Source of the DNA: Entoloma clypeatum
Lineage: Eukaryota > Basidiomycota > Agaricomycetes > Agaricales > Entolomataceae
Reading direction: 5' to 3'
Assembly (NCBI GenBank): GCA_963565915.1
Contig: OY751496.1
Coordinates: forward strand, 186,001 to 250,000
Length of the DNA: 64,000 bases
Below, piece by piece: positions 3,233 through 53,087 of the stretch. Both the position numbers and the translations under genes were made by a program. Positions within the stretch are counted from its first letter, which is position 1, and each line of letters begins with the position of its first letter. The notes below the pieces were generated by a model. The model searched no databases. It saw nothing but the letters and a program-made list of their open reading frames with translations, and had not been told where the DNA came from.

Positions 3233-3666
3233 TGTAAGGGCAACCTTACGATCCAAGACTCAAACTCAAGATACTTGCAAGGGAGATCCGAAGTTTAGAT
3301 TGAGCAGTCTGATAAGTAATACAACACACACCTTGCAAGGGAGATCCGAAGAGAAAGTTCTAAGGATTCCCCTGCAAGCTAGTGAGATAAATAGTAAAAT
3401 GAGATATGAAATAAGAGATAAAACGAGACACATGAATGATGAGCAATGATCGGGAGTAGCGATGAAGAATGAATGGAAACAAGATGAATGATAGTACCTG
3501 CGATCCGACGTGCGGAGTAGCGGATGGGGGCGGAGTCGTCGGATGCGGAGAGGCGGATAAGATGTCGGAGACAGCGGATACGATCGGAGGACATCGCAGA
3601 TGGTGGAATAGAAAAGAAAGGAAGAAAGGAAAGGAAAAGTAAAAAGTGAAAGTGGTTGCCCTTACA
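3233..3666 (-). repeat. 3' LTR of gypsy element B
   Basis: This 434-bp LTR has 13-bp near-perfect inverted ends (TGTAAGGGCAACC and GGTTGCCCTTACA). It pairs with 14962-15394, from which it differs at scattered positions. On the minus strand it is preceded by a polypurine tract (GAAGGGGGGGTGA) at 3667-3680. Confidence 0.93.
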
Positions 3667-3699
3667 TCACCCCCCCTTCAAGGCACGGCGTCTCAACGT

Positions 3700-6600: not shown

Positions 6601-7417
6601 AGGTCTTTGAGAATACATCTTCGAAGTCAAACAAGTGGTCTGGTACAGAGTCGCGGAAAGATTTAGGTTTTTTGTTACTGAGGAAGGCCTCCGATAGACG
6701 TTGCGAGATATTGGATGAAGCGCAGATGAACTCCGCCTCCGCGGGTACTGTTCCGACACAAAGGCGGTCTCCCTCCTCAAACTTCCTCCACCCATGGGCC
6801 GCGTGGAGCCTCCTCCTCTAGACCAGACGTCGGAGTGGAACCCACCTGACAGGCTCGGATGCAGACTTGTTCAAACTTCCGCTTCTTCCGCTCTTGGGCT
6901 GCCTCTTGGTGGCATGTCCGGCATCGTGCAGGACACCAGCTTATCTTCACTTCCCCTGACGTCCAATCTACCTCGGGGTTGTGTTCTTTGAGCCAAGTGA
7001 AGCCTAGCACAATTTCTTGTTTTCCCAAACTTGTGACTGCAAGCTGGGTCCGTTCCGAGTGATCCCGATAGCGGAGCACTACATCCAACACCTCCATTAT
7101 TGCTCCGGCCTCGTTTGGAGTTCCGTCGATGTTGTATACCAGAATTGCGCGTTGTAGTTTTCGAGTAGAGAATCAATGTTTCTCGACCAGAGTGCGTTCA
7201 ATAAACGACCCTGTTGCCCTGCTGTTGAGTAAGGCCTTTTGTGATAGTGTGTCTTTGGTGTCAGTAGTTTCAAGAACTATGTCTAGTTCAATAGAATTGT
7301 CGGAGTGAGCGGAGGCGAGGACATATTGTTTTGGAAGCTGATGCTCCCATTTAGAGGGGTGAAGGCAGATGGGATTTGCGGAGTTGGGTCCGACTATGGG
7401 ATCGTTTGCAGGCTTAG
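3700..7417 (-). pseudogene. pol of gypsy element B (protease-RT-RNase H-integrase-chromodomain), degenerate
   Basis: Minus-strand fragments in several frames give a complete but broken pol. A retropepsin region near 7230 reads ALLNSRATGSFIE where ALLDSGATG is expected, so the catalytic Asp is lost. RT covers about 6634-6002 with a CVYLDDILIF active site. An RNase H region (about 5900-5318) has EADSSDFATGAVLS. The integrase has a zinc-binding part (about 4990-4830) and the core motifs SDRGPQF and STAYHPQSDGQTEQ. A chromodomain follows that is frameshifted near 3850. Frame changes or stops occur near 7170, 6780, 6000, 5320 and 4700. The protein resembles that of element C at the family level. 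Confidence 0.88.
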
Positions 7418-7705
7418 TGTTGAGGCGACGCTAAGTCAAACGACGTCGCGAGCCCAAACTTAAGAACGAAGTGGAAAATGTGAAGTGAACTGAATTGCCC
7501 AGAGACCCAGCGGGAATCTCAAGAGAACAAGCTATCGAATACAAGTGAAAGTACTCTACTTATATATGTAAATTCCATGAGGCTGCGTTGTGGCAGCGTC
7601 ATGCTGCGAGATAATGATAAGATGTCCTCATGTGCGATATGATGTAGATAAGATAAGATCGAGATAAGATAAGATAAAGTGAAAAGTGAAAATACGATCA
7701 TAACA
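7418..7705 (-). repeat. 3' LTR of element C
   Basis: A 288-bp LTR, TGTTATGATCG to CGTCGCCTCAACA on the minus strand. It appears identical to 13280-13567. It is preceded on the minus strand by a polypurine tract (AGAAAGGGGGTAA). Confidence 0.95.
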
Positions 7706-7718
7706 TTACCCCCTTTCT
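7706..7718 (-). promoter_or_regulatory. Polypurine tract of element C
   Basis: AGAAAGGGGGTAA lies directly 5' of the 3' LTR on the minus strand. This is the expected site for plus-strand DNA priming during reverse transcription. It overlaps the last codons of pol. Confidence 0.75.
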
Positions 7719-11652: not shown

Positions 11653-11658
11653 AAACCC
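11615..11658 (-). promoter_or_regulatory. -1 ribosomal frameshift site between gag and pol of element C
   Basis: In the gag frame the minus strand reads CAG GGT TTT, giving the slippery heptamer G-GGT-TTT (11652-11658). A -1 slip enters TGT GAA CGT CAA, which is open into pol with no stop. Gag itself ends at TAA 11634-11636. Six bases after the heptamer, GTCA-a-CCAG can pair with CTGG-ctc-TGAC (11615-11645), a plausible stimulatory hairpin. The heptamer and frames are read directly; the frameshift function is inferred. Confidence 0.75.
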
Positions 11659-12722
11659 TGCTGCCCAGCAGCTTGTCCATTGTTCTGACCATTGGGATTC
11701 GGCGCAGGCGCGCCAATCACACCCCTTGGTCCATTTGCAGCTTGTCGTGCTTGACGCCTTGCCGTGATTTGTCGTAAGATTTCTTCTTCCTCATGTTCGT
11801 CGATTTGTTCAATCACAGCCGCTCGCACCTTGCGTTGTGGCTGTCTGCATTCCCGGGCGAAATGCCCCTGTCCTCCGCAATTGTAACAATTACCAGGCGC
11901 TCGGCGCTGGTTTCTATCAACCTCCATAGCATTGGGATCTCGGCGTCCCTGACCTTGCTGTCCGTTTTGCTGCAGGGCTCGGTACCCCCCGTTCTGTTGT
12001 TGTCCAAATGGTCGCTGCTGATTCTGTTGGTTTGCGGGCCGATTGCCCCAACCGGTTCTCTGCTGTCCAAAATTGTTGCCGGTCCTCATGCCCGGTCTTG
12101 CCGCGTAAGTTTCCTCTGCTCTTCCGATTGCTAAAATTTCCTCACACGTGTCTTGCACGGTGGTCTGTCGTCTTCCCTGCTGGAACATTTGTTGTATGAT
12201 CGAATCCTTGGTGTTCCTTTCTAGCAGAGATATCCCATGCATTTCCTCAATTTGGCCTTTGATGACCAACGTTCCAAATTGTGTAATAAAATCGTCCACC
12301 CGCATGTTTCCTTGTTTAAAGGTTTCGATTTTGGCACGTGCCCATTCTATTTCTGTTGCTGATTGGAATCTTGATGTCACCTCTCTCATTAATTGCTGGA
12401 ACGTGGGCCATTGTTCTGATTCCATGCACTGCCTCAAGCGTGTTTCCCCATAGGTGCCGGCTGTAGCGCCTTCCAGGCGAGACCATACTGCAATGCAAAT
12501 TTCTTCCTGTCCTTGGAACAGGTCCCGATTGACCCTGATCCATGCCAGCATCTTTGTCCACCATACTCCGAACGTTGCCTTGGCCCCATTGTACTTGCCG
12601 GGGTCTGCAGCGATTTCTAGTCGTCTTCCATTGGGACGCGGGGCGGCGGGATTATGAGCGGGAGGAGGGAGAGGGGGATTGGGAAGGGGATTGTCGAACT
12701 CGTCGTCGTTGTTGTCGGCCAT
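11634..12722 (-). CDS. Gag of chromovirus C
   Basis: A 362-residue structural protein starting MADNNDDEFDNP at 12722. It has an acidic, proline-rich N-terminus and a retrotransposon gag domain (about residues 40-190, with WARAKIETFKQG). A Gln/Asn/Gly-rich linker is followed by one CCHC zinc knuckle, CYNCGGQGHFAREC, near residue 285. The ATG is the first in the frame, about 560 bp inside the 5' LTR. Gag should form the virus-like particle and bind element RNA. No stops or shifts were seen. Confidence 0.93.
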   Translation of the reverse strand: MADNNDDEFDNPLPNPPLPPPAHNPAAPRPNGRRLEIAADPGKYNGAKATFGVWWTKMLAWIRVNRDLFQGQEEICIAVWSRLEGATAGTYGETRLRQCMESEQWPTFQQLMREVTSRFQSATEIEWARAKIETFKQGNMRVDDFITQFGTLVIKGQIEEMHGISLLERNTKDSIIQQMFQQGRRQTTVQDTCEEILAIGRAEETYAARPGMRTGNNFGQQRTGWGNRPANQQNQQRPFGQQQNGGYRALQQNGQQGQGRRDPNAMEVDRNQRRAPGNCYNCGGQGHFARECRQPQRKVRAAVIEQIDEHEEEEILRQITARRQARQAANGPRGVIGAPAPNPNGQNNGQAAGQQGFVNVNQ

Positions 12723-13279
12723 GTTGTGTGAGCAATAGTGCTTTGTAGCGGGCGCGCGACCCTGTTCTGCTACTTAAGCGAAAAAGAAAACCTAAAAAAA
12801 AGAAAACCCAAAGAACGATCTGTTTACCCAGGCAGCCGAAATGCCCGAATAAAGGAAGATCTGGGAAAAATGAAAACCACGCGGTCAACACCCCTACGCG
12901 CGCTGGTTCTGTCGAATCCGGGAAAAGATCGGGGTTTGGAACACCTTTTGAGAACTAAACGTGCGCGACCTTCTTTTCCAAGTCGCCACACGCGCCAGCA
13001 GCTTTCCCGAAGGTCAGTTGCGTCGGCCTTTGGTCACCTCGACACGGGACGGGCTCAACGTTTCCCTGTGTGTCTCGAACGGCAACGCTAGTTATAGTGG
13101 GTGCACCAAGCGTTTCTCTTCTTATCCCTGAAGTCCGGGAGGTCCCCCTTAACGCTAGGGTCCGCGTGTAATGGCGAGGTGTGACTTTTAACGCAAAAGC
13201 ACGAAACGGCGGGGATAGTGATGGTGATGTGGGAAGTGTGTGTGTTTGGGCGGGCGATGATGATAAGAGCTTGTTCTTC
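12723..13279 (-). other. 5' leader of element C
   Basis: The 557 bp between the 5' LTR and the gag ATG show no convincing reading frame on the element strand. It should hold the primer-binding site and packaging sequences. The first bases after the LTR (GAAGAACAAGCTC) do not match any tRNA 3' end that I recognise. Confidence 0.5.
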
Positions 13280-13567
13280 TGTTGAGGCGACGCTAAGTCA
13301 AACGACGTCGCGAGCCCAAACTTAAGAACGAAGTGGAAAATGTGAAGTGAACTGAATTGCCCAGAGACCCAGCGGGAATCTCAAGAGAACAAGCTATCGA
13401 ATACAAGTGAAAGTACTCTACTTATATATGTAAATTCCATGAGGCTGCGTTGTGGCAGCGTCATGCTGCGAGATAATGATAAGATGTCCTCATGTGCGAT
13501 ATGATGTAGATAAGATAAGATCGAGATAAGATAAGATAAAGTGAAAAGTGAAAATACGATCATAACA
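13280..13567 (-). repeat. 5' LTR of element C
   Basis: A 288-bp LTR, by eye identical to 7418-7705, with the TSD CTTAG directly outside at 13568-13572. The U3-like part holds short AAGAT/GATAAG-type repeats (around 13495-13540 on the plus strand). Confidence 0.95.
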
Positions 13568-13650
13568 CTTAGAGATGGAGGGTATAGGATCATATTGTTC
13601 CATAAATAAGGCAGCATAACAATTTTTAGCAGACAACGAGGGCGCACTGT

Positions 13651-14800
13651 TCACTCGCTGTGGGGAGGAAAATCCTTCTGTCCTTCCTCCGACTCCACAG
13701 ACTCCATGGGCAGAACGGAGTTGCCTTCCGCTGCGTCCTTGACCACGAGTTGTTCCATAACAAACTCATCCTGCTCCTCTGTTGTCATGAAGCGAACATC
13801 GAAGTGAAGGGGGCATTCATGACTAAAGTGACCCATTTTGTTACATCTGAAGCATGCATTGGCATTCTTGCCTTTGACGCGTGAAGTATCAATGTCCATT
13901 GCATTGGGGGCCCTTGTCAGCGGAGCGGATGCGGATGCGAGCGGAGCTGTATGCGGAGTGAATGGAATGTAGGGTTGAGGGAATACTGAGGTGCCAGGTA
14001 CTCTTGGTCCGACAACATTGCAGAAGGCAGAGGTGCGGGTCGGAGCAGTGGCTTTGAAGGCTTTGTTGGCAATCCTATTGTTGTCATTGACTCGTGCTGC
14101 AGAGTACCACTCATCGGGGTTGTCATCCACAGGTCGTCCGTGGGTCAGGGTGGCAATCTCGTTCTGAATGTCGGAACGGAGACCATGGCGGAATTTCAGT
14201 ATGATGTTGGTATCCTCCTGATAGCCCACTTTGTCAATGTAGTCTTTGAACTCGTCAATATAGGTCTCGACGTTGACCTTGATAATAGGATTCTCCTTCG
14301 AGGATCAGTCTCGCATCCTGTTCCTCATTCTTCGGAGTGAACTCCACTGTAAAGACTGCACAGAAGTCCACCCAAGTCCAATAAGGCAGAGCACCAGTCC
14401 TCCGCTCCTGTCGGATAATGTGATCCGCAAAGTGTGCTGCACATCCACTCTTCATGAAAGATAAAGCCCAATAAATTTTAGTGTGGTTGTCTGCAAACTG
14501 TTCCGGAGCCAGCCTCATAAACAATTCACAGGAGTTTAGAAAGGTCCAGCCATTTGCGCGTGATCCATCGAAGTCCGACGGATTGGCAGGTTTTGCTCGA
14601 TGCACACCTGGATTGGCCGGAGCGAGCGGAGTGGGTATAATAGCAGGTGCGGGAGCAGGTGGGATAGGTGGCAGAGCTGGGGCAGGAATTGCGTTGAAGG
14701 CGAGGAGGAGTTGGTCAAGTTGAGTCGAGATATCAGCGAGAGTTTGACATTGTTCCTGGAACTCATGCTTGAGCGTTTCAAGGCGATTGGGGTTGTCCAT
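13651..14800 (-). pseudogene. gag of gypsy element B, frameshifted
   Basis: Starts MDNPNRLETLKHEF at 14800. It contains a gag domain (WTFLNSCELFMRLAPEQF; WTWVDFCAVFTVEF) and is broken by a single frameshift near 14272. The next frame continues with ETYIDEFKDYIDKVGYQED and ends in a CCHC knuckle, CFRCNKMGHFSHEC, before a stop at 13651. One base gained or lost explains the break. It faces the pol fragments at 3700-7417, now separated from them by element C. Confidence 0.88.
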
Positions 14801-14961
14801 TACTATGCGCGGAGCAGAATCACCAGTTACGGAGAGGTAATTAGAAGAACTGGAAGGGGTGTGAGATGTATCGGAGTCGGACGCGGACGAAGCTGCTCCG
14901 AAGCGCAGAATCGTGACAACGATGCAATCGGACCTGGTCCAATTAGAAGAGAACTTTCTAC

Positions 14962-15394
14962 TGTAAGGGCGACCTTACAATCCAAGACTCAAACTCAGAT
15001 ACTTGCAAGGGAGATCCGAAGTTTAGATTGAGCAGTCTAATAAGTAATACAACACATACCTTGCAAGGGAGATCCGAAGAGAAAGTTCTAAGGATTCCCC
15101 TGCAAGCTAGCAAGATAAATAGTAAAATGAGATATGAAATAAGAGATAAAACGAGACACATGAATGATGAGCAATGATCCAGAGTAGCGATGAAGAATGA
15201 ATGGAAACAAGATGAATGATAGTACCTGCGATCCGACGTGCGGAGTAGCGGATGGGGGCGGAGTCGTCGGATGCGGAGAGGCGGATAAGATGTCGGAGAC
15301 AGCAGATACGATCGGAGGACGTCGCAGATGGTGGAATAGAAAAGAAAGGAAGAAAGGAAAGGAAAAGTAAAAAGTGAAAGTGGTTGCCCTTACA
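14962..15394 (-). repeat. 5' LTR of gypsy element B
   Basis: A 433-bp LTR pairing with 3233-3666, with the TSD GCAGG just outside at 15395-15399. It carries several GCGGA, TCGGA and TCCGA motifs, mostly in its second half. Confidence 0.93.
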
Positions 15395-17430
15395 GCAGGA
15401 AGCTGTTGGTTATGTTTCTTCATCCCTCACTGTACAGGTGAGTAGCTCAGTAGATAGGTAGCCTAGAAGACTTGGACATTGTTAGTCTACTATGTGGGAA
15501 CCAATGAGAATAATTCACCGAGAGGAAGCGAAATGAGGCACTGTGGCTGTCAATCTGCGACAACAGTCAGCGAATGGAGGGAGCCACGAATGAGGAAGCG
15601 ATGGATGCGAAGGGCTGCAAATGAACGAGGAAGTGACAGATGTGGAGAACGGCGAACAACGATAGGAATGGGTGTTGCACGGCGTTCACAGTCTACATGT
15701 TGTTTTTGTTCAGCCTGTTTGGTCATTTGAGCATCTTGGTGTGGATACAATTGAGGGGTAGTGTAGAGCCATGATTGGGGCCACAAACCTGAAGGCATCG
15801 TCTGGTTCTGTTGAGCGACGACAGCCTTGGAAATCCTCGACTCGACGTGCTTGTGCTTTGCACAGCATTCACCATCTACGTGTTGTTTCGTTCAGCATGT
15901 TTGGTCATTCGAGCACCTGGGCATGGATACGATTGAGGGGTAATATAAAGAGCCATGATTGAGACGTTCGGCAACATCTGATGTTGCTGTTCTGTTGTTG
16001 CAGAGGATGTATCGTCCGGGTCTAACAAGTTGTTGAAACTGCCATCGCCCCTGGATCGCACTCATCCATTATTTGGTGGGTATCATCAAGACTGAAAAAG
16101 TTATGCCAGCGACGCAAATGAGTGATGGTCAGCGAAGAACGTGGAGAGTGGTGAACGAACGAGGAAGCGAATGAATGAGGAAGCAACTAATGTGGAAAGC
16201 CATGAACATGGAAAGCAACGAACGTGGAGTGGTGAACGTGTGAACGAACAGGGCGAACACAACAAGTGTGGAGACTCAGTGGTAGATGAAGCAGAAGGCC
16301 GTGAACGAGCGAGAGGAGAACGAGGAGAGCTGGCGAGGAGGTAAGAGCCAAGACGGCCAGCCACTGTGGCCCACAAACGCGAGGGAAAATGAACGACAAA
16401 GGAGGAACGAGGCCCACAATCATCACACGCCCATCAATCAATGAACCCGCGATCATGGGTCACGTTGGTCCAGGGCCGACTGCCGGCACTGCCCCCGCTG
16501 ATGCAACATGATCATGCTGCACCCAAGCCCTGGGGTCCCCTCAGGGTCAATCGGTGATCGCTTGGCGGCTTACAGCTCAGACTTTCCCACCCAGCCAAAA
16601 CATTGTAAGCCATTCAGGATAAGTTGAGTTATATGCTATGATTTATACCGATCATGTAATGCACCGTAAGTCAGATCGGGGGAGATGGGCGTGGATCTGG
16701 TGGATCGGGGGATAAAAATCCACTGAAAAAAATGTGGGAGGAATGCGACATTTGATGGCTGGGCACATGTTATAGTAGTATATACCTATAAACAACAGAA
16801 TAGCGGATGTGAAAAATAGTGTGTGATAACAGTGACAGCGGACTGAGCCCAGCATGATGTCTATACCTTACAGCTGGGCTGATGAGTGGGTGAACATTGT
16901 AAATAATAGCTGGGCTGATGAGACATTAAGTCAATATGCTCTGATGTTATAAGGGTGAAATGGCAATAGCCTTATGTACGGCTTTTGAATGCTACCCAAA
17001 GAATAATACCTTTGTTCACAGTGGCCATTTGAGTGTGGGAACCTGGGTTGAGGGAGACATTGACTTCCTTGCTGATATTGTAAATGGGGGATACATGGGT
17101 TTGCAAAACAGGGAAAGATAAGACCTTTATCTAGAAGAAAGGAATGCTTCATGCAGAGAAAAAATGGAGAGAGGAGTCAATGGCGAGTCTTGCTCCGTAG
17201 GGGAAGAATTTCATCCCGTCAGGGCCAGGTGAGGGTCGGAGGCGGGAACGGGTCTCATATGCTGGGCAGAGGAAACGTGACGAAGAAATCCTTGAGGTTT
17301 TGTTATGTGGAAGGCAATTGTGTTGCCCCTGGGAGAGGAGGTTGAAGGGAAGTCTCATGGCTCGTTGAAGTCACCCTGGTGGATGATTTTCATTTGCTAG
17401 ACGATGGTGGATTTACCTGATTCCCCTGTA
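15395..17430 (+). other. Non-coding stretch, no gene recognised
   Basis: The first bases continue the flank of the recombinase-like pseudogene beyond element B. Open frames here are short, low in complexity (repeats of the GAACGAGGAAGCGAATG type at 16140-16330) and resemble no family I know. Imperfect direct repeats occur at about 15698-15779 and 15880-15963 (GTTTGGTCATT ... GGATAC.ATTGAGGGGTA) and near 16865 and 16907 (AGCTGGGCTGATGAG). Confidence 0.5.
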
Positions 17431-31493: not shown

Positions 31494-34156
31494 CTTCTTC
31501 CGCTCATATCCGACCTTCTCCAGACCGCTGGAAAAGCCAGTGTTTATACGGCTCTCGACCTCCGACACGCCTATCACCTCGTCCGCATAGCGGAAGGAGA
31601 TGAATGGAAAACCGCCTTCCGCACGCGCTACGGGTCCTTTGAATGGCTTGTCATGCCATTTGGACTCACCAACTCCCCAGCCGTTTTTCAACGCTTCATG
31701 AACGACATCTTCCACGACCTGCTTGATAAGTATGTTACCATATATCTCGACGACATCCTCATCTACTCCGACTCTCCCTCCGAGCATCGGAAGCATGTCC
31801 GCGAAGTCCTCCGACGTCTCCGACAACACGGCTTATACGCACGCGCAGACAAATGCGAGTTTTCTACGGATACTGTTGAATACCTTGGCTTTATCCTCTC
31901 TCCGACAGGCCTCCGCATGTCGGATAAGAAAGTCAAAATTATTCAAGATTGGCCTGAACCAAGGAAGGTCAAAGACATTCAGTCTTTCTTAGGTTTTGCC
32001 AATTTTTATCGACGATTCATTCCTTACTACTCCGAAATCACCGTTCCGCTCACTCGACTCACCCGCAAAAACACACAATGGCACTTCTCCGACTCCGCTC
32101 GCGAATCTTTCAAAACTTTGAAGAAAGCCTTTACCACGGCACCTGTTCTTATGCATTGGATTCCCGACAGCCCTATTATCGTCGAAACCGATGCCTCCGA
32201 CTACGCTTTGGGTGCGATCCTCTCCATCCGCACCTCCGACGACGAAATCCATCCGGTCGCTTTCCACTCCCGCACCTTTACACCTCCCGAGTTAAACTAT
32301 GACACCCACGACAAAGAACTATTAGCGATCCATGATGCATTCAAGGTTTGGCGTCACTACCTTGAAGGCTCCGCTGCTCCGATCGATGTCATAACGGACC
32401 ACAAAAATCTTGAGTACTTTTCTACTACCAAGATTTTATCACGTCGACAAGCTCGTTGGTCCGAATACCTCTGCCAGTTCAATCTCATCATCCGCTTCCG
32501 CCCTGGCCGTTTAGGTACGAAGCCCGATCTTTTAAGTAGACGATGGGACATCTACCCTAAAGAGGGAAATAGCGACTATTCGTCCATCAACCCAAGCAAC
32601 TTCAAACCCATCTTCACACAAGAACAGCTCACCACTTCACTTCGCGCAACAGAGTTATATACACCCGTCCTCCGTGCCACAATCATCATGGATACAGATC
32701 AGCTCCGCTCCGACATCCTCTCCGCTCTTCCGACTGATCCCATTTATACCTCTTTCCTCGACAATCCTAATCCACGCTGGATCGTGAATGAAGCAGGTTA
32801 TCTACTCCACAATGGACGTATCTATGTTCCCGACTCATCCGACCTCCGTCTCCGCATCCTCCGCAATAAGCATGACCATATCCTCGCTGGACACCCTGGT
32901 CAAAATAAGACTATTAGTCTTATCCAACGAGAATACACTTGGCCTGGAATGCGCGACTTCGTCAAAAAGTATTGCAAGTCATGTACCACTTGTATGCGCG
33001 CCAAACCCCAACGTCATAAACCCTACGGTCTGCTTAAACAACTCCCTATTCCTGAACGTCCCTGGCATTCTATTTCCATGGACTTCATTGAACCCCTTCC
33101 GACATCCGCTGGCTCCGATGCGATTCTGGTCATTGTAGACCGCCTCACTAAACAAGGCATCTTCATCCCTACCACCATTAATTGCACATCCGAAGACCTA
33201 GCAAACCTTTTCGTGCTTCACGTCTTTTCCAAGCACGGAGTTCCGCAAAACGTCACATCCGATCGCGGACCTGAATTCGTCTCCCGTTTTTTCCGCTCTC
33301 TTGCAAAAGCCCTCGATATGAGACTTCACTTCACTTCTGGATATCACCCTGAAGGCGATGGTCAAACCGAACGCACCAACCAGACACTCGAACAATACCT
33401 CCGCATTTTCTGCAACTACCAGCAAGACAACTGGTCCGCTTTGCTTCCGCTTGCGGAGTTCGCTTACAACAACACTCCGAGTGCCACCACAGGTGTATCA
33501 CCATTCTTCGCCAACAAAGGTTATCACCCCGACATTACACTCCATCCGGAACGTGATCTAGCATCCGATAAAGCTCGACAATACATCGTCGACTTAGATG
33601 AATTACATCAAGAACTAAAGACTGCTGTCGCAGAGGCACAACAACGTTATCAAGGCCCTGCGGACGTCCGACGTTCTCCGCCTCCCCCGCTCCGCGTCGG
33701 ACAAGAAGTCTTTGTTAAAGCTAAGTTCTTCCGCACCACACGACCCACCCAAAAGTTATCCGACAATATGCTGGCCCATTTGAAATCATAGCCCAACCCG
33801 GCACGCACTCCTTTACACTACGTCTACCCGACACTATGCGTGCTATACACCCCGTCTTCCACATATCCATGCTCGAACCAGCAACTCCTAACGAGATTCC
33901 AAATCGGATACAATCTCCTCCGCCTCCGCTCGAGATGGACGGAGAAACCGAATACGAAATTGCGGAAATCATCGACTCAAAGATCGATAAAAGACGACGC
34001 TGCAAACTCCTTTACCTCGTCCGCTGGTTAGGTTATGAAGACACCAGTGAAGAGTTTTCTTGGTTACCCGCATCCGAGCTTGAACACGCAGCGGATACGG
34101 TAGCGGACTTCCACTCCGCTCAACCAACTAAGCCAGGCCCCTTATCGCGCTTGTAA
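31494..34156 (+). pseudogene. pol of gypsy element A1, truncated and frameshifted
   Basis: The frame enters at ISDLLQTAGKASVYTALDLR (RT fingers) and has the active site VTIYLDDILIYSD. Further on are RNase H (ETDASDYALGAILS), the integrase zinc domain (HKHDHILAGHPGQN ... CTTCMRAKP) and the integrase core (SMDFIEPLPTS, SDRGPEF, GYHPEGDGQTER). A one-base loss near 33766 ends this frame at 33791. The following frame (from YAGPFEIIAQPG) holds the GPY/F module and a chromodomain (EYEIAEIIDSK ... LVRWLGYEDTSEEFSWLP) to 34156. The protein is close to the pol of element D throughout. TCCGAC and CTCCGA recur in two different reading frames. Confidence 0.92.
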
Positions 34157-34200
34157 CAAAAAGAAAAGAAAATCTATTAAAATTTTGTACTAACAAAAAA

Positions 34201-35219
34201 CTACTTTCGCTGTTTTTTGTTAGATACCCCCTCCGTCTCCTCGTTCCACTCCGATCCGGATTCCTCTTCCGCTTCCTCCATCCGCTTCCGCTTCTTCGTT
34301 TCTTCTTCTTTTTCTGCTTCTTCTTCTACCTCCCTTCCCAACTCCTCCAATACCCTATCATACTCCTCCGCATCCTCGTCCTCGTCGGATCCCTCCTCCG
34401 AAGCCTCCGAATCCTCCCTCCACGCGATAACCGTCAAAAGCTCCTTGATCTCCCGCAATTCCTTCAACTCCGCCTTTATCAGCCGCATCTCCCTTATCAT
34501 GCTCCTAAGCCCTCTCACCACCTCCGTGCCTATGACCACCTCCGGCGGACCAAACCCCTCCGGCATGAACTCCGGCTCCTCCGACGCTGCGGCTATCCGC
34601 GATCCCTCCGCGGTCCCCTCTCCCTTGGACGATCCCGCCTTCGCGTTCTTTGTCGCACCACCTGCCACCTTAGCCTTTCCGACCCTCACCGCCTTGGTCA
34701 TCCTCCGCTTCACCTCCGACTCCGCTTCCGCTCCCGTTCTGCAGCTTCGTTTTAAACGCTGGCACCGCCAGCACGACGAAGCATTGTCATTCCTAAAGAA
34801 CAAGTTAATAACGAAGCGTATAAAGAAATAGGAAAAACTCACTCCGATGGCCAAAAACACAAGTCCCCCGCTTTCAAGCAGGAGGTGCAATCCTCCTTCC
34901 CCTGCTCGTAACTCGCAGGCATATTCTTGAAAACCCCCTGCAGCCGGACCTTCTTCACCTCCGCACTCGCCGCATCCGCATCCGCATCCGCCTCCGCATC
35001 CGCACCTGCACCCGCGACCGGTTCCTTCGCCTTCGCCTTCTCTGCCTTCCTCTCTGCTCGTCTCCGCTCTTTCGCCGCCCTCTTCGCCTCCGCGCGCTCT
35101 GCATCTTCCTTCGCGCGCTCCTCTGCCTCCTGCAGTTTCCTCTCCAACTCTTCGGTGACCTTCTTCTGGCGCTCCCTTTCAGCACGAAGAGCGGCGAGGG
35201 GTGAGTTTTCAGCGGACAT
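34201..35219 (-). CDS. Antisense Zn(II)2Cys6-type gene of gypsy element A1
   Basis: Exon 1 is 35219-34843 and exon 2 is 34792-34201, with a 50-bp intron (GTGAGT ... TTTAG). The spliced frame is 969 nt (322 residues) with no stop. The N-terminus (MSAENSPLAALRAERE) forms a long Glu/Arg/Lys coiled coil to about residue 70. Cysteines at 111, 114, 121, 133, 136 and 143 give C-x2-C-x6-C-x11-C-x2-C-x6-C, within the Zn2Cys6 range; the intron falls between the two halves. The C-terminal half is acidic and ends NKKQRK. It runs tail-to-tail with pol, 44 bp apart, and starts 131 bp from the 3' LTR. Element D has the same gene with the same intron position and end. In Gal4 the basic residues lie in the first half; here they lie in the second (QRLKRS). 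Nuclear DNA binding is inferred. Confidence 0.8.
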
Positions 35220-35350: not shown

Positions 35351-35884
35351 TGTCATAACCATACGATTCACATCCGACTTATCCGACGACTCCAACATTT
35401 CATCCGCTCCAACATCCGCTCCAACAAACATTCTATTTATATTGAATATACTTCTACTACGTAACATCTCAACCATACTCACAAGTAGACATATGTTGTT
35501 CACTTTTCATTTGCTACTCTCCGTACTCCGAATGTTCCGATGGTCAACTCCGATATCTGGACATCACTTATAGTAATGCTGATCATTCTAGTCTACTATA
35601 AATAGTGTACAAACCTGTCGTAGAACCTCAGTTCAAATATCATACGTTACACCTCATTCGCATCCGTCTCTACTTGCCTTTGAGCATTCCCTCCGTCACC
35701 TCCGCTCATCCGCTCATCCGCTCATCCGACATCCGCCAATCCGAAATCGAGGACCACATCAAAGAGTGGGGCGCAACGCACAAGTTGAAGCCAGGTCCTT
35801 TCTGCCAACGTTGCACTTACCGCATTCCGCTCCTCCGCTACTCTGCTCCGACTCGTCCGACGTTGAGAAACACGCTACGTGACA
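35351..35884 (+). repeat. 3' LTR of gypsy element A1
   Basis: 534 bp, TGTCATAACC to CTACGTGACA. It is nearly the reverse complement of 108-659. It shares with the LTR of element D the block GGCTTCAACTTGTGCGTTGCG (here on the minus strand), so A and D are related families. Rich in TCCGA and TCCGC. Confidence 0.93.
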
Positions 35885-45990: not shown

Positions 45991-46466
45991 TGTTAAGAAC
46001 TGATCGACAAAACGTCGGAGCTACGTCGGACGCGTCGGAAGGTCGGAAGGTCGGAGCGCGTGCAACGTAGGGGCAAGGACTTGGCTTCAACTTGTGTGTT
46101 GCGCCCTCGCTAATACGTTGGTGTCCTTATTTCGGAGGATCGGAGGTCGGAGGTCGGACTCAAGTTAAGAGTCGGAAAGAGGACGGGAGGTATGATGTCG
46201 AATCTAAGTTGATATTCAAACTGAAGCTAATACACGATTCTACATAAGTTTAAATACTATGTCGGAGGACGTGTGGCTTCGTCGGAGTCGGATAACGAGT
46301 GGCTGTCGGAGATTCTTAACATAAGTAAAATGGTCGGATGTAAGTAATGTACGTAGTAACGAGATTCATAACAGTAAGTATGCATAATAAGTATTAGTCA
46401 AAATGTCGGAGGTGTCGGAGGTGTCGGGATTGGTCGGAAATCGTCGGAATGGATCGGAATGTAACA
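45991..46466 (-). repeat. 3' LTR of element D
   Basis: 476 bp, TGTTACATTCC to AGTTCTTAACA on the minus strand. No difference from 52612-53087 was seen by eye. The polypurine tract TAAGGGGGAAATAC adjoins it (46467-46480, minus strand). It contains 20 TCGGA sites on the plus strand. Confidence 0.95.
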
Positions 46467-46624
46467 GTATTTCCCCCTTAGGGCCGAACCCATGAGGCCT
46501 AGGTGGTCGGTGCGCGTGAACTGTGTCATGTGATGCGTTGGTTGAAAATACCGTCTGAGTGGTTTTTTCTTCCTGTTCCCCCATTCTTTTTTCGTTTTAA
46601 ACTCTTCCGAAAATAAACCTCAAT

Positions 46625-47610
46625 ATGTCGGCATCCGATTTTCAAAAGGAGATGGAGGCGCTGCAGGCTAAGCTCGCGGAGGTGGAGGCGAAAAAGCGAG
46701 CAGCGGAGGAGGAGGCTGCGAGGAAGGCTGAGGAGGAGCGGAGAGCGGAGGAAGAGAGGGCTGCGGAGGCGGCGCGGTTAGCGGAGGAGATGCGGGTAGC
46801 GGAGGAGATGCGTCGGGCGTCGGAGCTGGCGGCTCAGAAAAGGGCCGATGAAGTGGCCGCTGCGCAAGGCGCATCGAGCAAGGGGTCGGGGGAGCCGCAG
46901 GCGGAGAAGAAGAAGAAGACGACGAAGAAGAGGAAGGTGGAGGAAGTGTCGGCGATGGTTGGAGAGGGGTCGGGAGTCGGGGTCGGGGTCGGCACCTGTG
47001 ATAGGTGCATTGTGAAGGGCGTCGAATGCGAACGCGATGAGTAAGTCCCTCTTTGGTTCGTCTCTTCTGTTTTAACCTTGTTTTTTTTTTTTTTAGGAAT
47101 AAGTCGTCCTGCAAAGGATGTATCAAAGACAAGAAGAAGTGCGAGGTCGGAGCGTCGGAGGGGAAGTCGGAGGTGAAGGAGGTGAAGAGAACGGTGAAGG
47201 TGGTTAAGGGGAAGAAAAAGGCGTCGGAGATGCCGTCGGAGAGTGGGTCGGAGGACACCGTCTTGGGTGTCCTCAAGATGATACTGGCGGAGACGAGGCA
47301 GGTGAGGCGACTGCTAACAGCAGTCGAAGGCTCGGTGAACACCGAGTACCAACCCAAGTCGCCGGAGGTGTCGGAGGAAGGGTCGGAGTCGGAGATGGAT
47401 ACGGCGGAGGAGACGCACGAGTTGAGACTGGAGAAGAGGATTGCGAGAAGGATTAGGAAGGACCTGGTGAATAGGAAAAGGTTGGAGTTGCCGGAGCTGT
47501 CGGACGATTCCGACATGTCGATTTCGGAGCCGTCGGAGAAGGCGGAGTCGGGTAAGGAGGAGTCGGACAAGGAGGAGGGTCCGTCGAACAAGAAACAACG
47601 TACTAAGTAG
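46625..47610 (+). CDS. Antisense Zn(II)2Cys6-type gene of gypsy element D
   Basis: Exon 1 is 46625-47040 and exon 2 is 47097-47610, with a 56-bp intron (GTAAGT, then a T-rich tract and TTTTAG). The spliced frame is 930 nt (309 residues). An N-terminal Glu/Ala/Lys coiled coil (about residues 5-80) is followed by a basic nuclear-localisation-like run (KKKKTTKKRKVEE). Cysteines at 125, 128, 135, 144, 147 and 154 form C-x2-C-x6-C-x8-C-x2-C-x6-C, the Gal4-type spacing. An acidic Ser/Glu-rich C-terminal half ends NKKQRTK. The stop lies 27 bp from the pol stop, tail-to-tail. The start is 158 bp from the LTR, so an LTR or polypurine-side promoter may drive it. Intron position, cysteine spacing and C-terminus match the gene in element A1, so it is a conserved element gene. 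The function is inferred: probably nuclear DNA binding. Confidence 0.85.
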
Positions 47611-47637
47611 ATAGAATAGTACTTGTTTTTTCTTGTT

Positions 47638-50600
47638 TCAGAGCGATGTGAGCGGACCCGGTTTGTCGGGATAAGCGGAGTGAAAGTCGGAGACAAGCTC
47701 GGGTGCGTTTTCCAATTCATTGGCTGGTAGCCAAGAGAATTCTTCATCAGTGTTTTCATATCCTAACCAACGGACGAAATATAGTAGCTTGCAGCTACGT
47801 CGTCGGTCGATCTTTGAGTCGACTATTTCAGCGATCTCGTACTCAAGTTCTCCGTCAATGTCAATCGGAGGAGGCGGAGGTTGGGTCCGATTCGGAATGG
47901 TGTTCGGAGTTGCGGGTTCAAGCATGGAGACGTGGTAGACGGGGTGAACACCGCGGAATGTGTCGGGGAGTCGGAGGGTAAAGGAGTGTGTGCCGGGTTG
48001 TGCAATGATCTCGTATGGTCCCAAGTACTTTTCTGAGAGTTTCTTGGATGGGCGTGTTGTGCGGAAGAACTGTGCTTTGACGAAAACCTGTTGTCCGACA
48101 GAAAATGTCGGAGGTGCGATCCGATTATTGTCGGAGGACTTCTGGTAACGTCGTTGAGCGTCGGAGATGGTGGCTTTCAGTTCTTGGTGAAGTTCGTCTA
48201 AGTCGGTCATGAAGGATCGGGCTCGGGAAGAGGCGAGGTCTCGTTCCGGGTGAACAGTAATGTTCGGATGGTAACCCTTGTTAGCAAAGAAGGGAGATAT
48301 GCCAGTGGTAGCACTAGGTGCGTTGTTGTACGCGAACTCCGCAATCGGAAGGAGAGCGGACCAGTTGTCCTGTTGGTAGTTGCAGAATATCCGCAAGTAC
48401 TGTTCGAGGGTCTGGTTAGTGCGTTCGGTTTGGCCATCGCCTTCGGGGTGGTAACCGGAGGTGAAGTGGAGGGTCATGTTTAGAGCCTTTCCGAGAGATT
48501 GGAAGAATCGGGAGACGAATTCGGGGCCGCGGTCGGAGGTGATATGTTCGGGGACGCCGTGTTTAGAGAAGACATGCAATACGAAGAGTACGGCAAGGTC
48601 TTCGGAGGTGCAGTGAATTGTTGTCGGAATGAAAATACTTTGTTTCGTTAATCGGTCAACGATAACGAGGATTGAATCAAAGTTGTCGGAGGTCGGAAGG
48701 GTCTCGATGAAATCCATTGAGATAGAATTCCAAGGACGTTCGGGGATCGGAAGCTGTTTGAGTAGGCCGTAAGGCTTGTGTCTTTGTGGCTTCGATCGCA
48801 TGCAAGTGGTACATGACTTGCAATAGTGTTTAACGAAATCTCGTATTCCGGGCCAGGTATAATCACGCTGAATGAGACTGAGTGTCTTGTTCTGACCTGG
48901 GTGTCCAGCAAGCATATGATCGTGCTTGTGCTGTAGGACTCGGAGTCGGAGGTCGTCGGAGTCGGGAACGTATATCCGATCGTCATGTCGGAGGAAACCA
49001 TCGGGGTCGAGAGACCAGCGGGGTTTAGGATCTTTAGAAAGAGTGTCGTAAAGAGTGTCGGAAGGGAGTGCTGTGAGTATGTCGTGGTGAAGCTTTTCTG
49101 TGTCCATGATAATGGTTGCACGGAGGACGGGCTCAAGGAGTTGAGTCGCGCGAACTGAAGCGGAGAGCTGTTCTTGCGAAAAGACTGGTCGGAGGTTGGT
49201 CGGATTGATGTCGACGTAGTCGCTATTTCCCCCTTTAGGATAGACATCCCAACGTCTAGTTAGAGAGTCAGGTTTAGTTCCCAATCGGCCGGGGCGGAAT
49301 CGGATGATGAGGTTGAACTGAGAAAGGTATTCCGACCATCGGACTTGTCGGCGTGAAAGAACTTTGGTGGTGGCAAAATACTCGAGATTTTTGTGGTCGG
49401 TAACGACGTCAATCGGAGTACCGGAGCCTTCGAGGTAATGGCGCCAAATTTTAAACGCTTCGTAGATGGCAAGAAGTTCCTTATCGTGGGTGTCATAGTT
49501 TACTTCGGGGGCCGTGAAGGTGCGGGAATGGAATGCGACGGGGTGGACTTCATTGTCGGAGGTGACTATCGACAGAATAGCCGCTAGGGCATAGTCGGAT
49601 GCGTCGGTTTCGACAATTATCGGAGAGTTGGGAATCCAGTGTGTCAGGATCGGAGCGGTGGTAAATGCCTTTTTCAGGTCATTAAAAGCGGTTCGAGCGT
49701 CGTCGGAGAACAGCCAAGTGGCATGTTTCCTGGTTAAACGAGTGAGTGGAATAGTGATGTTGGAATAGAATGGAATGAAACGTCGGTAAAAGTTTGCAAA
49801 ACCTAAAAAGGACTGGACGTCCTTCACTCTGCGCGGTTCAGGCCAATCCTGAATAATCTTGACTTTCGCTTCCGACATTTTGAGTCCGTTGGGAGAAAGG
49901 ATAAATCCAAGATATTCTACAGTTTCGGCAGAGAAGTCGCACTTGTCGGCGCGGGCGTAAAGACCATGTTGTCGGAGTCGTCGGAGGACTTCTCGGACAT
50001 GTTTTTTGTGTTCCTCGGGGTTGTCGGAGTAGATCAGGATGTCGTCGAGGTAAACGGTAACGCAGTTGTCCAGAAGGTCGGAGAAGATGTCGTTCATAAA
50101 ACGTTGAAAGGCTGCAGGTGCGTTAGACAATCCGAATGGCATGACTAACCATTCAAATGATCCATAGCGAGTGCGGAATGCAGTTTTCCATTCGTCACCT
50201 TCAGCGATGCGGACTAGGTGGTATGCGTGTCGGAGGTCTATGGTGGTATAAACGCGTGCTTTTCCGGCAGTGGCTAAGAGGTCGGAGATGAGCGGAAGTG
50301 GGTATCGGTCCTTCTTCGTGATTTTGTTCAGGCCTCGGTAGTCGACGCATAGTCGGAGTGATCCATCTTTCTTTCGGACGAAGAGGATCGGAGCGCCGTG
50401 AGGTGAACTAGAAGGTTTGATGAAACCGATATTGAGGTGCTCATCGATGAAGTCTCGGAGGGATCCAAGTTCGGATTGCGAGAGTGAGTACATCGGACCA
50501 ATCGGAGGGGAAGTACCTTCCTCCAAATTGATTTTGAGGTCGTACGGTCGGTGGGGTGCAAGGGTGTCGGCTTTTTTCTTACTGAATACATCAGCAAAAT

Positions 50601-51347
50601 CGTGGTATTCCTCGGGTATGCCAGAGAGGTCGGGAGCGTCGTCGGAGACAGACGCGGAATTGGCGGAGATGTCGGAGAGGTGAACACGGAAAGCGTATGC
50701 CCCAGGAGCTTTACATGCATGGAGATATGCGGCTGCATTGACCATGGTAATCTGTGGCGGGTCGGAGGTGTTCGGAGTGAGCGGATCGGAGGTGCCCATC
50801 GGAGAGGGCGGACACTGCAGAGGTGGCGGAGCTGCCTCAGCAGTCGACGTCGGAGTCGGACTCGGAGTGTCGGGTAACGTAGAACGGAATAAGATACTGC
50901 CCAATACCCAGTCAATCAACGGATTGTAGCGGGTGAGCCAGTTGTGTCCTAGAACCAAATTACAAGACGAATCGAGGGTTGTCACGTAAAACGCGACGGT
51001 CAGAAGTTCACCGGAAGGAAATCGGAGAGGAAGATCGATAGATTGTGTGATATAAGTATTTGAAGAACCGTCAAAAAGTTTCAAAACCATAGGTGAAGGA
51101 ATCGGAGTCGGAGATAAGTTTAAAGAAGAAATAAATCTGGTATCTGCGAAGCAATGTGTAGAACCAGAATCAATAAGAGTCTTTATCGGAAGAGAATCGG
51201 AAAAGGTCGGAGATATCAAATCAATACATAGAGAGTTCGGATTTGAGAGAGCGGACGCATTGAGTCGGAGGGTTTCCAAAGGTGCACGAAAGGAGTCAAC
51301 GCAATCCCCAGTACGTGCTGGAATCTGAGGACTGCTTACTATTTTTT
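47638..51347 (-). CDS. Pol polyprotein of gypsy element D
   Basis: An open frame of about 1230 codons, entered by -1 frameshift at 51342-51348. Retropepsin has TLIDSGSTHCFAD and a second strand LVLGHNWLTRYNP. RT has the active site VTVYLDDILIYSD; RNase H has ETDASDYALAAILS. The integrase has an HHCC domain (HKHDHMLAGHPGQN ... CTTCMRSKP) and the core motifs SMDFIETLPTS, SDRGPEF and GYHPEGDGQTER. A GPY/F module (YLGPYEIIAQPG) and a chromodomain (EYEIAEIVDSKIDRRRSCK ... YFVRWLGYENTDEEFSWLP) close the protein. No stops or lost catalytic residues were seen. There is no suitable ATG near the start, consistent with a Gag-Pol fusion. Confidence 0.95.
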
Positions 51348-51348
51348 T
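51312..51348 (-). promoter_or_regulatory. -1 ribosomal frameshift site between gag and pol of element D
   Basis: The gag frame ends TCA AAA AAA TAG, giving the heptamer A-AAA-AAA (51342-51348) directly before the stop. A -1 slip gives ATA GTA AGC AGT, which is open into pol. About ten bases downstream, TCCTCA can pair with TGGGGA (one G-U pair) to form a hairpin. The heptamer and frames are seen directly; the function is inferred. Confidence 0.75.
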
Positions 51349-52565
51349 GACTCGGTCGTCTTCTCCGATTTGTCCTCAGCTTGGGCCGCGCGGGCTTTTG
51401 CTTTGGCGTTAGAAGACGATTTCTTCGAGCAGTCGGAAGCCCGATGACCAACGTTGCCGCAAAACATGCATAAATTATTGTCAAATCGTCGTTGGCGTTC
51501 TTGGGGAGTTAATTTCCCATCTTTGCCAAGTTTGTCGGAGAGGGCGGATTTCGGAGAGGTGGATGACGATTTTTGTTGTTGTTGCGAGTTGGGTTTAGAC
51601 GATGAGGAGTTGTTGTTGGAGGATGATGAAGCGGGGGTCTGTTTTTTGTCGGATTTGTCGGATTTGTCGGATTTTGGAGTAGATTTGTCGGAGGAGCGCG
51701 ATTTCTCGCGTTGACGTTCCCAGTAGCGAGCATCAATGTTATGGGCCATTACTTTCAACTCGGCGAGAGTCTTTGGTTTGGGAAAAGTCCCCAAAACGTC
51801 CTTGATGCGTTCCGCTAAACCGGTATAGTACCGATATCGGAGCGCGCCATCATCCCACTGCGTGCGAGTGGAAAGACGTTTGAAGTCCACGTTGTAACGT
51901 AGGATCTTCTGATTGTCGCGCATCCGAAGGTGATCCAGGCTATCCTCTGCTTCTCCGGTCGGATCGATAGGTCCGAATTCGGATCGGAGGATGTGCACAA
52001 AGGCGGACCAGTCGTCCAACCAGACAGAGTCATCGTCGGACTCTCCCAAGAGGGTGGGCTCAAACCATTCGAGCGCGGTTCCTCGGAGGTACGACAGAGC
52101 GAAACTGACTTTGTTATCATCATCGTCAAAGGCGGGGTTGTTTCGGAAATATAGTGTGCATTGTGCGAGGAAACTGGTGAGTTTCCGAGAGTCGGAACCG
52201 TCAAAAGTGTCGGGTTCCTTCGATTTCTTTTTCGGAGTTTTCGGAGTCTCTCTACGTCGGAGCTCCTGCGTCATAAGCATAATTGCTTCGGCGAGGTTTG
52301 GAGTTTGCTCGCGACGGAAAGGATTGTTATCGTCAAAAGGAGAGGTCGGCGATTTAAAAGGACGGAATTCTTCAGGAATCGGAGGTCCTTGTGTCTGAGG
52401 TGTTCGGAGACGAGGTGTCGGAGATATGGGGTCAGGTTTGGGTGCAGATTCTTCTGCGGGAATATCTTGGAACGTATGTAGAAATGTCGCCCTGGTGTCC
52501 TGCAGGTTTGAAGCTTCCGCTGCGGCTGCTGCTGCGCGGGAGTTCTGTGTGTTGCGGGCTGCCAT
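51339..52565 (-). CDS. Gag of gypsy element D
   Basis: 408 residues from MAARNTQNSRAAAAAAEAS at 52565. A proline-rich N-terminus is followed by a gag domain (SDSRKLTSFLAQCTLYFRNN, ALSYLRGTALEWFEP, WDDGALRYRYYTGLAERIKD). A Ser/Asn/Lys-rich linker leads to a CCHC knuckle, CMFCGNVGHRASDC, near residue 375. It ends KTTESKK at the slippery site. The start ATG lies 47 bp inside the 5' LTR, so the leader is very short. Intact. Confidence 0.94.
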   Translation of the reverse strand: MAARNTQNSRAAAAAAEASNLQDTRATFLHTFQDIPAEESAPKPDPISPTPRLRTPQTQGPPIPEEFRPFKSPTSPFDDNNPFRREQTPNLAEAIMLMTQELRRRETPKTPKKKSKEPDTFDGSDSRKLTSFLAQCTLYFRNNPAFDDDDNKVSFALSYLRGTALEWFEPTLLGESDDDSVWLDDWSAFVHILRSEFGPIDPTGEAEDSLDHLRMRDNQKILRYNVDFKRLSTRTQWDDGALRYRYYTGLAERIKDVLGTFPKPKTLAELKVMAHNIDARYWERQREKSRSSDKSTPKSDKSDKSDKKQTPASSSSNNNSSSSKPNSQQQQKSSSTSPKSALSDKLGKDGKLTPQERQRRFDNNLCMFCGNVGHRASDCSKKSSSNAKAKARAAQAEDKSEKTTESKK

Positions 52566-52611
52566 AACTGGAATTTGAAATACGGATAAGCGAGTGGCAG
52601 TTTGAATATAC

Positions 52612-53087
52612 TGTTAAGAACTGATCGACAAAACGTCGGAGCTACGTCGGACGCGTCGGAAGGTCGGAAGGTCGGAGCGCGTGCAACGTAGGGGCAAGGA
52701 CTTGGCTTCAACTTGTGTGTTGCGCCCTCGCTAATACGTTGGTGTCCTTATTTCGGAGGATCGGAGGTCGGAGGTCGGACTCAAGTTAAGAGTCGGAAAG
52801 AGGACGGGAGGTATGATGTCGAATCTAAGTTGATATTCAAACTGAAGCTAATACACGATTCTACATAAGTTTAAATACTATGTCGGAGGACGTGTGGCTT
52901 CGTCGGAGTCGGATAACGAGTGGCTGTCGGAGATTCTTAACATAAGTAAAATGGTCGGATGTAAGTAATGTACGTAGTAACGAGATTCATAACAGTAAGT
53001 ATGCATAATAAGTATTAGTCAAAATGTCGGAGGTGTCGGAGGTGTCGGGATTGGTCGGAAATCGTCGGAATGGATCGGAATGTAACA
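52612..53087 (-). repeat. 5' LTR of element D
   Basis: 476 bp, apparently identical to 45991-46466. The TSD ATCGG follows at 53088-53092. It shares GGCTTCAACTTGTGTGTTGCG with the family A LTRs (there GTGCGTTGCG). Confidence 0.95.

Follow-up and report, generated by a model that had tools for sequence, protein, structure and literature searches.

The VANDAL transposons of Arabidopsis are among the closest known parallels to the elements described here. Their VANC proteins are described as binding a word that has accumulated in the element's own copies, and as removing methylation (PMC5735166, PMC10398659). For VANC21, the motif YAGTATTAY is reported from non-coding parts, often as tandem repeats (PMC5735166).

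Other elements carry related features. Plant gypsy elements of the Retand lineage have antisense TRP28 ORFs, described as coding for a probable DNA-binding protein (PMC11963269). In its description of these ORFs the source mentions the antisense proteins of HTLV, and makes no mention of word saturation (PMC11963269). Some fungal DNA transposons carry TET/JBP dioxygenase genes, for which an escape from methylation-based silencing has been proposed (PMC12730594).

The window analysed here is a stretch of 64,000 nucleotides from the fungus Entoloma clypeatum. It holds a complete Ty3/gypsy chromovirus on the minus strand, element D (45991..53087), recognised by its LTR pair, Pfam domains, word counts and target duplication. 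The LTRs (3' LTR 45991..46466, 5' LTR 52612..53087, both minus strand) are 100% identical, and the 5-bp duplication ATCGG flanks the element on both sides, with an A coming after. Between the LTRs lie gag (51339..52565, minus strand, from Pfam and word counts) and pol (47638..51279, minus strand), where Pfam finds protease, RT, RNase H, integrase and chromodomain. Viral contigs yielded no relatives of pol.

An additional gene runs antisense, on the plus strand. Exon 1 (46625..47040) holds the N-terminus and a first CX2CX6C half, and exon 2 (47097..47610) a second such half, acidic stretches and a basic tail. The 56-bp intron that separates the two halves (47041..47096, plus strand, boundaries GTAAGT...TTTTAG) is inferred from the sequence.

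D resembles a VANDAL in carrying an extra gene and in having built up a short word across its own copies. VANDALs however are Mutator-like DNA transposons, whereas D is a gypsy chromovirus retrotransposon. The gene here is antisense, its predicted protein is zinc-cluster-like, and the word is oriented and also found throughout gag and pol, not confined to non-coding DNA. The strict orientation in D and in another family, A, is left unexplained by the VANC analogy, and there is no VANC-like domain among the Pfam matches of the antisense proteins. The TET/JBP genes are similar in that a carried gene is proposed to free a fungal transposon from silencing, but they encode an enzyme, sit on DNA transposons and are described without a saturating word (PMC12730594).

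The Retand elements share the place of the antisense ORF, between pol and the 3' LTR, which is also where it lies in D (46625-47610), A and a third family, F. They differ in having a TRP28 domain and a non-chromovirus pol, and in being from plants; D pol has a chromodomain. With E allowed up to 10, none of the three antisense proteins (D, A, F) matches PF04195 (TRP28). The HBZ protein of HTLV-1 is the product of an antisense retroviral gene, nuclear, regulatory and of the bZIP type. Like the gene described here, the HBZ gene lies antisense at the 3' end of its element; unlike it, it codes for a bZIP-type protein and belongs to a human virus. We know of no saturation of the HTLV-1 genome with a target word. 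A search of titles and abstract openings, taking in few subscription journals and preprints, found no account of a system such as this one.

Spliced translation of the D antisense gene gives a protein of 309 aa, with a charged N-terminus from exon 1 that by its sequence is probably coiled-coil. In D, A and F the gene has the same position and the same inferred intron position. The window copy of A consists of a pol part (31497..34120, plus strand), an antisense gene with two exons and 322 aa (34201..35219, minus strand) and an LTR (35351..35884, plus strand). Its cluster is divergent, CX2CX6C-X11-CX2CX6C. The six cysteines, in two CX2CX6C halves, are invariant in all three families, while the linkers between the halves measure 8 residues in D, 11 in A and about 10 in F. 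The proteins are otherwise divergent, with the other two 37% and 24% identical to D.

The original prediction called this a Zn2Cys6-type protein. The six cysteines do follow the CX2CX6C-linker-CX2CX6C pattern of PF00172 (Zn_clus) factors, but the profile scores fall under its cutoff of 21 bits: cut-out pieces reach 14.6 (A), 12.3 (D) and 9.1 bits (F), and of the full-length proteins A reaches 9.5 bits while D and F have no match. Single cluster halves had zero matches to Zn_clus, and no PDB chain matched the cluster of A. The order of the halves, which in PF00172 puts the basic recognition half first, was scored with matrices built from 18 small host PF00172 loci that supplied 9 first and 14 second halves; the first/second log-odds are 0.7/0.3 in D, -12.8/3.5 in A and 6.5/-1.8 in F. 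We make no claim of a circularly permuted cluster, an idea prompted by the weak Pfam alignments, as only A fits it, with D ambiguous and F opposite.

Among 5.8 billion proteins no relatives were found of the D antisense protein (7989 candidates scored) or of residues 95-170 of A (9 candidates), in a search that spliced genes may escape. The same search gave 7755 matches for D pol, with Leucocoprinus, Pisolithus and Trametes named for a few of the 120 listed. Judged by sequence comparison, exon 2 in the D family is under purifying selection, with a dN/dS of 0.13-0.44 (9 of 32 sequences). Constraint on the F gene is weaker, at 0.66 in one comparison (five sequences of two types). One copy, L039, has an exon 2 at 69% identity yet the same word, which speaks against the antisense protein as reader, though its second cluster half is unchanged.

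The word itself is TCGGA, or TCCGA on the other strand. Recounting bears out the earlier numbers of 20 in the D LTR, 14 in 47101-47640 and 2 in 8041-8640, and also the claimed spread over LTRs, gag, pol and the antisense gene. All of D contains 152 copies versus 13.7 expected from the rest of the window (word backgrounds come from some 31 kb of the 64 kb). The word is strongly oriented: on the plus strand there are 137 TCGGA versus 15 TCCGA. Counted on the coding strand, TCCGA:TCGGA is 62:8 in pol, 21:4 in gag and 20:0 in the LTR, which is to say that the 3' LTR has 20 TCGGA on the plus strand and 0 opposite.

It had also been claimed that protein sequence does not explain the word, and this stands. 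The 62 sense-strand TCCGA of D pol occupy codon phases 20/16/26. In 500 synonymous-codon shuffles the count falls to 19.6 (z = 12.5, 0/500 as high), and for gag from 21 to 6.0 (z = 7.5, 0/500 as high). For TCCG in pol, z is 11.0 in D, 8.2 in A and 9.3 in F. Sense-strand CGGA in pol is near shuffle level in D (16 vs 17.8) and A (16 vs 12.5), and F has some excess there as well (z 3.5).

D, A and F are the three gypsy families found to have the antisense gene, and all carry oriented CGGA saturation. Per kb there are 24.2/3.9 CGGA on the antisense/sense strands of D, 22.5/4.6 in A (L054) and 26.3/8.2 in F (L057), versus a background of 2.3/2.5. The preceding base varies: T in 73% for D, G in 50% and T in 36% for A, T in 38% and G in 34% for F. 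The body of A (31497-35884) contains 46 GCGGA (1.5 expected), exceeding its 32 TCGGA (3.6 expected); in its pol part both lie on the minus strand. Some pol sites are common to families, above general tetramer conservation (D-A 32 vs 20.5, D-F 52 vs 24.2), and the remaining ones are private to one family. Between one and three copies of each family were examined in full; the counts of 224, 120 and 140 include fragments, and for the 224 the best 150 of 285 candidates were scored.

Element C (7418..13567, minus strand, duplication CTTAG) is motif-poor, and its near-background density had already been pointed out: saturation is absent from this one C element, as it is from two copia families, with one copy of each examined. 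It is also absent from 22 foreign gypsy elements, where no pentamer rises above z 5.0. These contigs are 3.2-7.5 kb long, so that many may miss the region in which an antisense gene would be expected, and in 4 of the 22 no pentamer was numerous enough to score.

Family B is different. The window copy, a gypsy element without antisense gene, is cut by C into a first part (3233..7417) and a second part (13568..15397), both on the minus strand; L051 and L052 are intact copies. CGGA is enriched on both strands, with a weaker strand bias than in D, and both excesses outlast codon shuffling (z 7.6 and 7.5). The original prediction had enrichment going with the antisense gene, and named equal enrichment in a family without it as evidence to the contrary. 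The association is seen in D, A and F. It fails in B, which has 178 CGGA over both strands in 5.7 kb versus 186 in 6.6 kb for D. The orientation in D, the enrichment of B without a gene, and the preference of A for GCGGA had no place in that prediction.

These data suggest that the elements label themselves for a protein of their own. At least D, A and F carry an oriented CGGA at intervals of some 40 bp, in LTR, gag, pol and antisense gene alike. The six-cysteine antisense protein would read this label by attaching to CGG-type sites throughout the element, and an element so coated would stay transcribable, by anti-silencing or activation, much as with VANC. Fungal Zn2Cys6 proteins usually bind CGG triplets. 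The CGG core of the word and the Zn2Cys6-like cysteines, taken by analogy, suggest reading by the element's own protein. The shared position of gene and intron, the invariant cysteines and the purifying selection on exon 2 in D point the same way. Against it stand the orientation, which would not follow from a monomer bound to DNA, the sub-cutoff Zn_clus scores, the weaker constraint in F and motif CpGs that decay nearly as often as others.

That B is equally enriched without the gene means either that B uses another family's protein, or that the word's reader is something else. In the self-label model, B would free-ride. From the sequences at hand, we lean towards the element's own antisense protein as reader. 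Anti-silencing or activation as the benefit of the word, suggested by analogy, would be plausible, if somewhat less likely than not. A selected self-label with an antisense reader, allowing somewhat for such a benefit, might equally well prove right or wrong. The most elaborate version is rather unlikely: an oriented four-base identity code with an antisense reader, escape from CpG-methylation silencing, co-divergence of code and reader, and a gene-less B that counterfeits it on either strand.

The reader of CGGA could instead be a DNA-binding protein of the host, such as a zinc-cluster factor, in which case elements including B gathered sites for activation or protection, and the antisense protein has another job or assists. 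The two-stranded word in the gene-less B fits this, and the genome has 29 host-type PF00172 matches, some within repeats. Yet the three strongly oriented families are precisely the three with the antisense gene, one common reader would not predict a preceding base that varies by family, and C and the two copia copies do without the word. We consider a host reader improbable.

A reader of RNA is about as improbable. Here UCCGA/UCCGC in genomic RNA, or UCGGA in antisense RNA, would be bound by Gag or the antisense protein and would serve packaging, export or evasion of RNA interference. The 137:15 orientation in D and the shuffle-level sense-strand CGGA in D and A pol are what this would give. 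In predicted sense RNA, UCCG is also less paired than same-composition words, with an unpaired measure of 0.45 vs 0.29 in D, 0.44 vs 0.34 in A and 0.38 vs 0.32 in F, but a scarce complementary word would by itself give such low pairing. B speaks against RNA, being enriched on both strands beyond shuffles, with a motif that is not less paired (0.21, 0.21). So do the sense-strand excess in F pol and the core of the word, a triplet known as a DNA target.

It is also conceivable that the word has no function and reflects mutational or replication bias, codon usage or the neutral spread of repeats. Codon shuffles, all codon phases, and sites in the non-coding LTRs argue against this, as do the 22 foreign elements and the fact that two distant pol lineages have the word while C does not. 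The copia copy L056, in which an unrelated word, AGTAC, exceeds its codon shuffles (z = 7.0), does show that a strong word excess is possible without this gene. In D pol the columns that hold motif codons are slightly more variable than the others (0.721 vs 0.775, p = 0.04), as neutral change would give.

In 20 LTR pairs, 106 of 124 differences are CpG transitions (the non-CpG control counts one direction, CpG both), so these elements undergo CpG-type decay, like methylated DNA. This main post-insertion mutation destroys CGGA, yet the word persists, so selection must hold it. Protection of the motif CpGs after insertion is not shown by the LTR pairs, where 44/505 motif and 62/552 other CpGs decayed (p = 0.18), nor by an old D copy, where decay is equal (62/143 vs 104/242, p = 1.0). 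The window copy of B compared with L051 gives 46/181 vs 96/265 (p = 0.017, uncorrected). With the shuffles, the LTR sites and this decay spectrum, a mutational or codon-usage origin was judged unlikely, absence of any function is very improbable, and that the word is selected is close to certain. Equally improbable is an integration platform, in which the word attracts new insertions into the same elements as a safe haven: nesting is seen, as with C inside B, and the duplication of D reads ATCGG with an A after it, but by manual reading 4 of 26 insertions have CGG on either strand in the 5 bp beside the element, versus about 2.4 by chance.

Should the antisense protein be the reader, sequence-specific self-recognition would have arisen separately in another kind of mobile element, this time a fungal retrotransposon whose coding sequence itself contains the word. 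Arms-race questions on the co-evolution of word and reader, cheating by gene-less families and the role of orientation would then be open to direct test. Even with another reader, there are more than 100 CpG-containing words per element that outlast CpG decay. That so many are kept means strong selection on the whole element, beyond its proteins.

Two smaller observations concern the arrangement of words. An excess of GATAAGA in C is confined to its LTRs, except for one site per strand. A fixed dimer spacing of CGGA sites was sought in D, A and F and not found; the commonest distance between sites is 9 bp (17 pairs in D, 14 in A, 19 in F), and multiples of 3 are favoured.

Element D (45991-53087, minus strand) is a Ty3/gypsy chromovirus with gag and pol, in an assembly of 60 Mb and 20 contigs. 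Its 476 bp LTRs are identical to each other, 5-bp duplications (ATCGG) flank it, and among the matches listed for its pol the named relatives are from Agaricomycetes. A further gene, on the strand opposite to gag-pol, lies in the interval that separates pol from the 3' LTR, with exon 1 at 46625-47040, a putative intron, and exon 2 at 47097-47610. The product has 309 amino acids, a charged N-terminus, a basic tail, and six cysteines forming two CX2CX6C halves. A Plavaka transposase frame (53317-54876) adjoins D; TET/JBP genes are described in some Plavaka elements (PMC12730594).

The word TCGGA/TCCGA is found 152 times in D against 13.7 expected, with 137 of the 152 sites on the antisense-gene strand. 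The ratio of that strand to the other is 20:0 in the LTR, 13:1 in exon 2, 62:8 in pol and 21:4 in gag. CGGA by itself is enriched 6-fold, and GTCGGAG is the most frequent extended form. Distance counts revealed no fixed spacing of sites, and a mild excess at 9 bp. Protein sequence does not account for the excess of the word: as originally noted, the pol sites use more than one reading frame, in fact all codon phases, and the enrichment survives comparison with 500 synonymous-codon shuffles, the null used here for coding sequences. For TCCGA this gives 62 vs 19.6 in pol (z = 12.5) and 21 vs 6.0 in gag (z = 7.5), and for TCCG in pol 87 vs 38.7 (z = 11.0). The opposite word, CGGA, is at shuffle level in D pol (16 vs 17.8).

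Exon 2 of D has at least 224 matches in the genome, fragments included, from 99% down to about 60% identity. Element A has an antisense protein with the same layout and a different sequence, and family F, located elsewhere in the genome through an LTR word probe, has a third divergent one. Identity to the D protein is 37% for A and 24% for F, with the six cysteines invariant in all three. Their clusters have at least 120 (A) and 140 (F) genome matches, again including fragments. Counted over complete copies, the density of CGGA per kb (antisense strand/sense strand) comes to 24.2/3.9 for D, 22.5/4.6 for A (copy L054) and 26.3/8.2 for F (copy L057), over a background of 2.3/2.5. The preceding base is T at 73% of the sites in D; in A it is G at 50% and T at 36%, in F T at 38% and G at 34%. 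In the body of A in the window, GCGGA occurs 46 times (1.5 expected) and TCGGA 32 times (3.6 expected). F has some word excess on the sense strand too, and 13 TCCGGA palindromes in L057 vs 4 in some 31 kb of background; an inverted version may be part of the F site. The word is a real, selected self-word, oriented in three families, and it goes with an antisense zinc-cluster-like gene.

A gene-less fourth family shares the self-word. B is a distinct gypsy lineage (38-40% pol identity), and its copies L051 and L052 have a gag frame of 442 and a pol frame of 1356 amino acids. CX2CX6C was sought on both strands of these copies, and none was found. In L051 pol stops 15 bp from the LTR, which means that there is no room for an antisense gene. 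This goes against the original link of word and gene: B has 17.8/13.6 CGGA per kb, beyond codon shuffles on both strands (z 7.6 and 7.5). Its preceding bases (G 48%/T 33%) are nearest to those of A.

Element C, which lacks the antisense gene, is indeed near background: it has 1.2/5.8 CGGA per kb, not above codon shuffles. Two copia families, with one copy taken from each, stand at 3.7/4.5 and 3.3/3.5, and their CGGA words likewise show no excess over shuffles. A wider comparison used 22 foreign gypsy elements (L109-L130) that share 33-54% identity with the pol of D. Their contigs are filed as prokaryotic or bacterial, which probably reflects contamination by eukaryote DNA. These elements have 0.6-5.8 CGGA or TCCG per kb. 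None has an opposite-strand CX2CX6C, on contigs of 3.2-7.5 kb where that stretch may often be missing. The top pentamer z among the 18 of 22 that could be scored is 5.0; the same score is 12.1 for D, 9.1 for F, 8.2 for A and 6.9 for B, always for a CGGA-type word. The copia copy L056 (contig C11:3214300-3220300) has AGTAC 18 times vs 4.8 in codon shuffles (z = 7.0), with a strand bias of 25 vs 6. This is possibly another element-specific word, which counts against the uniqueness of CGGA.

The label "zinc cluster" is suggested by the cysteine pattern. The Pfam Zn_clus score stays under the 21-bit cutoff: cut-out pieces reach 14.6 (A), 12.3 (D) and 9.1 bits (F), and the full-length D protein has no match to that family. 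Searches of 5.8 billion proteins, a set in which spliced genes may be missed, found no relatives of the D protein among 7989 scored candidates, and none of residues 95-170 of the A protein among 9; the A cluster matches no PDB chain. Scoring for a swapped order of the cluster halves fitted A alone, with D ambiguous and F opposite, and did not support it. A typical zinc-cluster frame (CAPCKGAKVRC..., PF00172 at about 22.5 bits) recurs with identical sequence at several places, including L047 and L048 (contigs C12 and C2), and apparently belongs to another repeat.

Of 124 differences in 20 LTR pairs (18 F, 2 D), 106 are CpG transitions: 106/1057 CpGs changed vs 3/4402 non-CpG C-to-T, the latter counted in one direction and CpG in both. 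An old C copy, changed at 19/47 CpG positions vs 12/253 others, has the same skew, so this is a general host process. A TE CpG signature has been reported in three basidiomycetes without RID/Masc1-like genes (PMC4352252). Because CGGA contains a CpG, such CpG decay destroys the word, and its density in intact copies must therefore be held by selection. CpG change in motif vs other positions, a proxy for protection of the word, is 44/505 vs 62/552 in LTR pairs (p = 0.18), 62/143 vs 104/242 in an old D copy (p = 1.0), and 46/181 vs 96/265 for window B against L051 (p = 0.017, uncorrected). Shared pol sites exceed the expectation from tetramer conservation (D-A 32 vs 20.5, D-F 52 vs 24.2, A-F 41 vs 20.9, D-B 12 vs 4.7), and many sites are private to a single family; retention and turnover go together. 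For antisense exon 2, dN/dS ranges from 0.13 to 0.44 across nine sequences of the D family; the single F comparison gives 0.66. The D-family locus L039 (contig C9:4901700-4909200) is 99% identical to window D in pol and nearly as close in exon 1, but just 69% identical in exon 2, which is close to that of L040 (dN 0.03). Its antisense gene looks like a mosaic, and TCGGA is still its word.

The best explanation, and a reasonably probable one judging from sequence, is that the element's own antisense protein would read the CGGA word on its element. Either B relies on another family's protein, or the antisense protein is not the reader. A host reader is a live rival, as is an RNA-level one. In predicted sense RNA, UCCG is less paired than words of the same composition in D, A and F, but not in B; scarcity of the complementary word suffices for this, so it does not help in choosing between DNA and RNA. 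CGG at insertion sites is near chance (4/26).

Returning to reading by the antisense protein, the nearest system by function is VANC of Arabidopsis VANDALs: VANC21 binds YAGTATTAY in non-coding parts and causes hypomethylation (PMC5735166). In gene position the closest counterpart is TRP28, encoded antisense in Retand elements of plants (PMC11963269). Defining features of both are absent here, so the present elements are not filed with either. By analogy they may work like VANC, and the benefit of the word could, tentatively, be anti-silencing or activation. For TET/JBP genes carried by fungal transposons, escape from methylation has been proposed (PMC12730594).

The window has some further features. 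An inverted repeat at 18976-20153 has arms of 540 nt, 93% complementary and 98 nt apart, and a tandem duplication at 2565-2942 has 189 bp units that are 97% identical. Each C LTR (7418-7705 and 13280-13567) carries GATAAGA five times on one strand, resembling GATA-factor sites.
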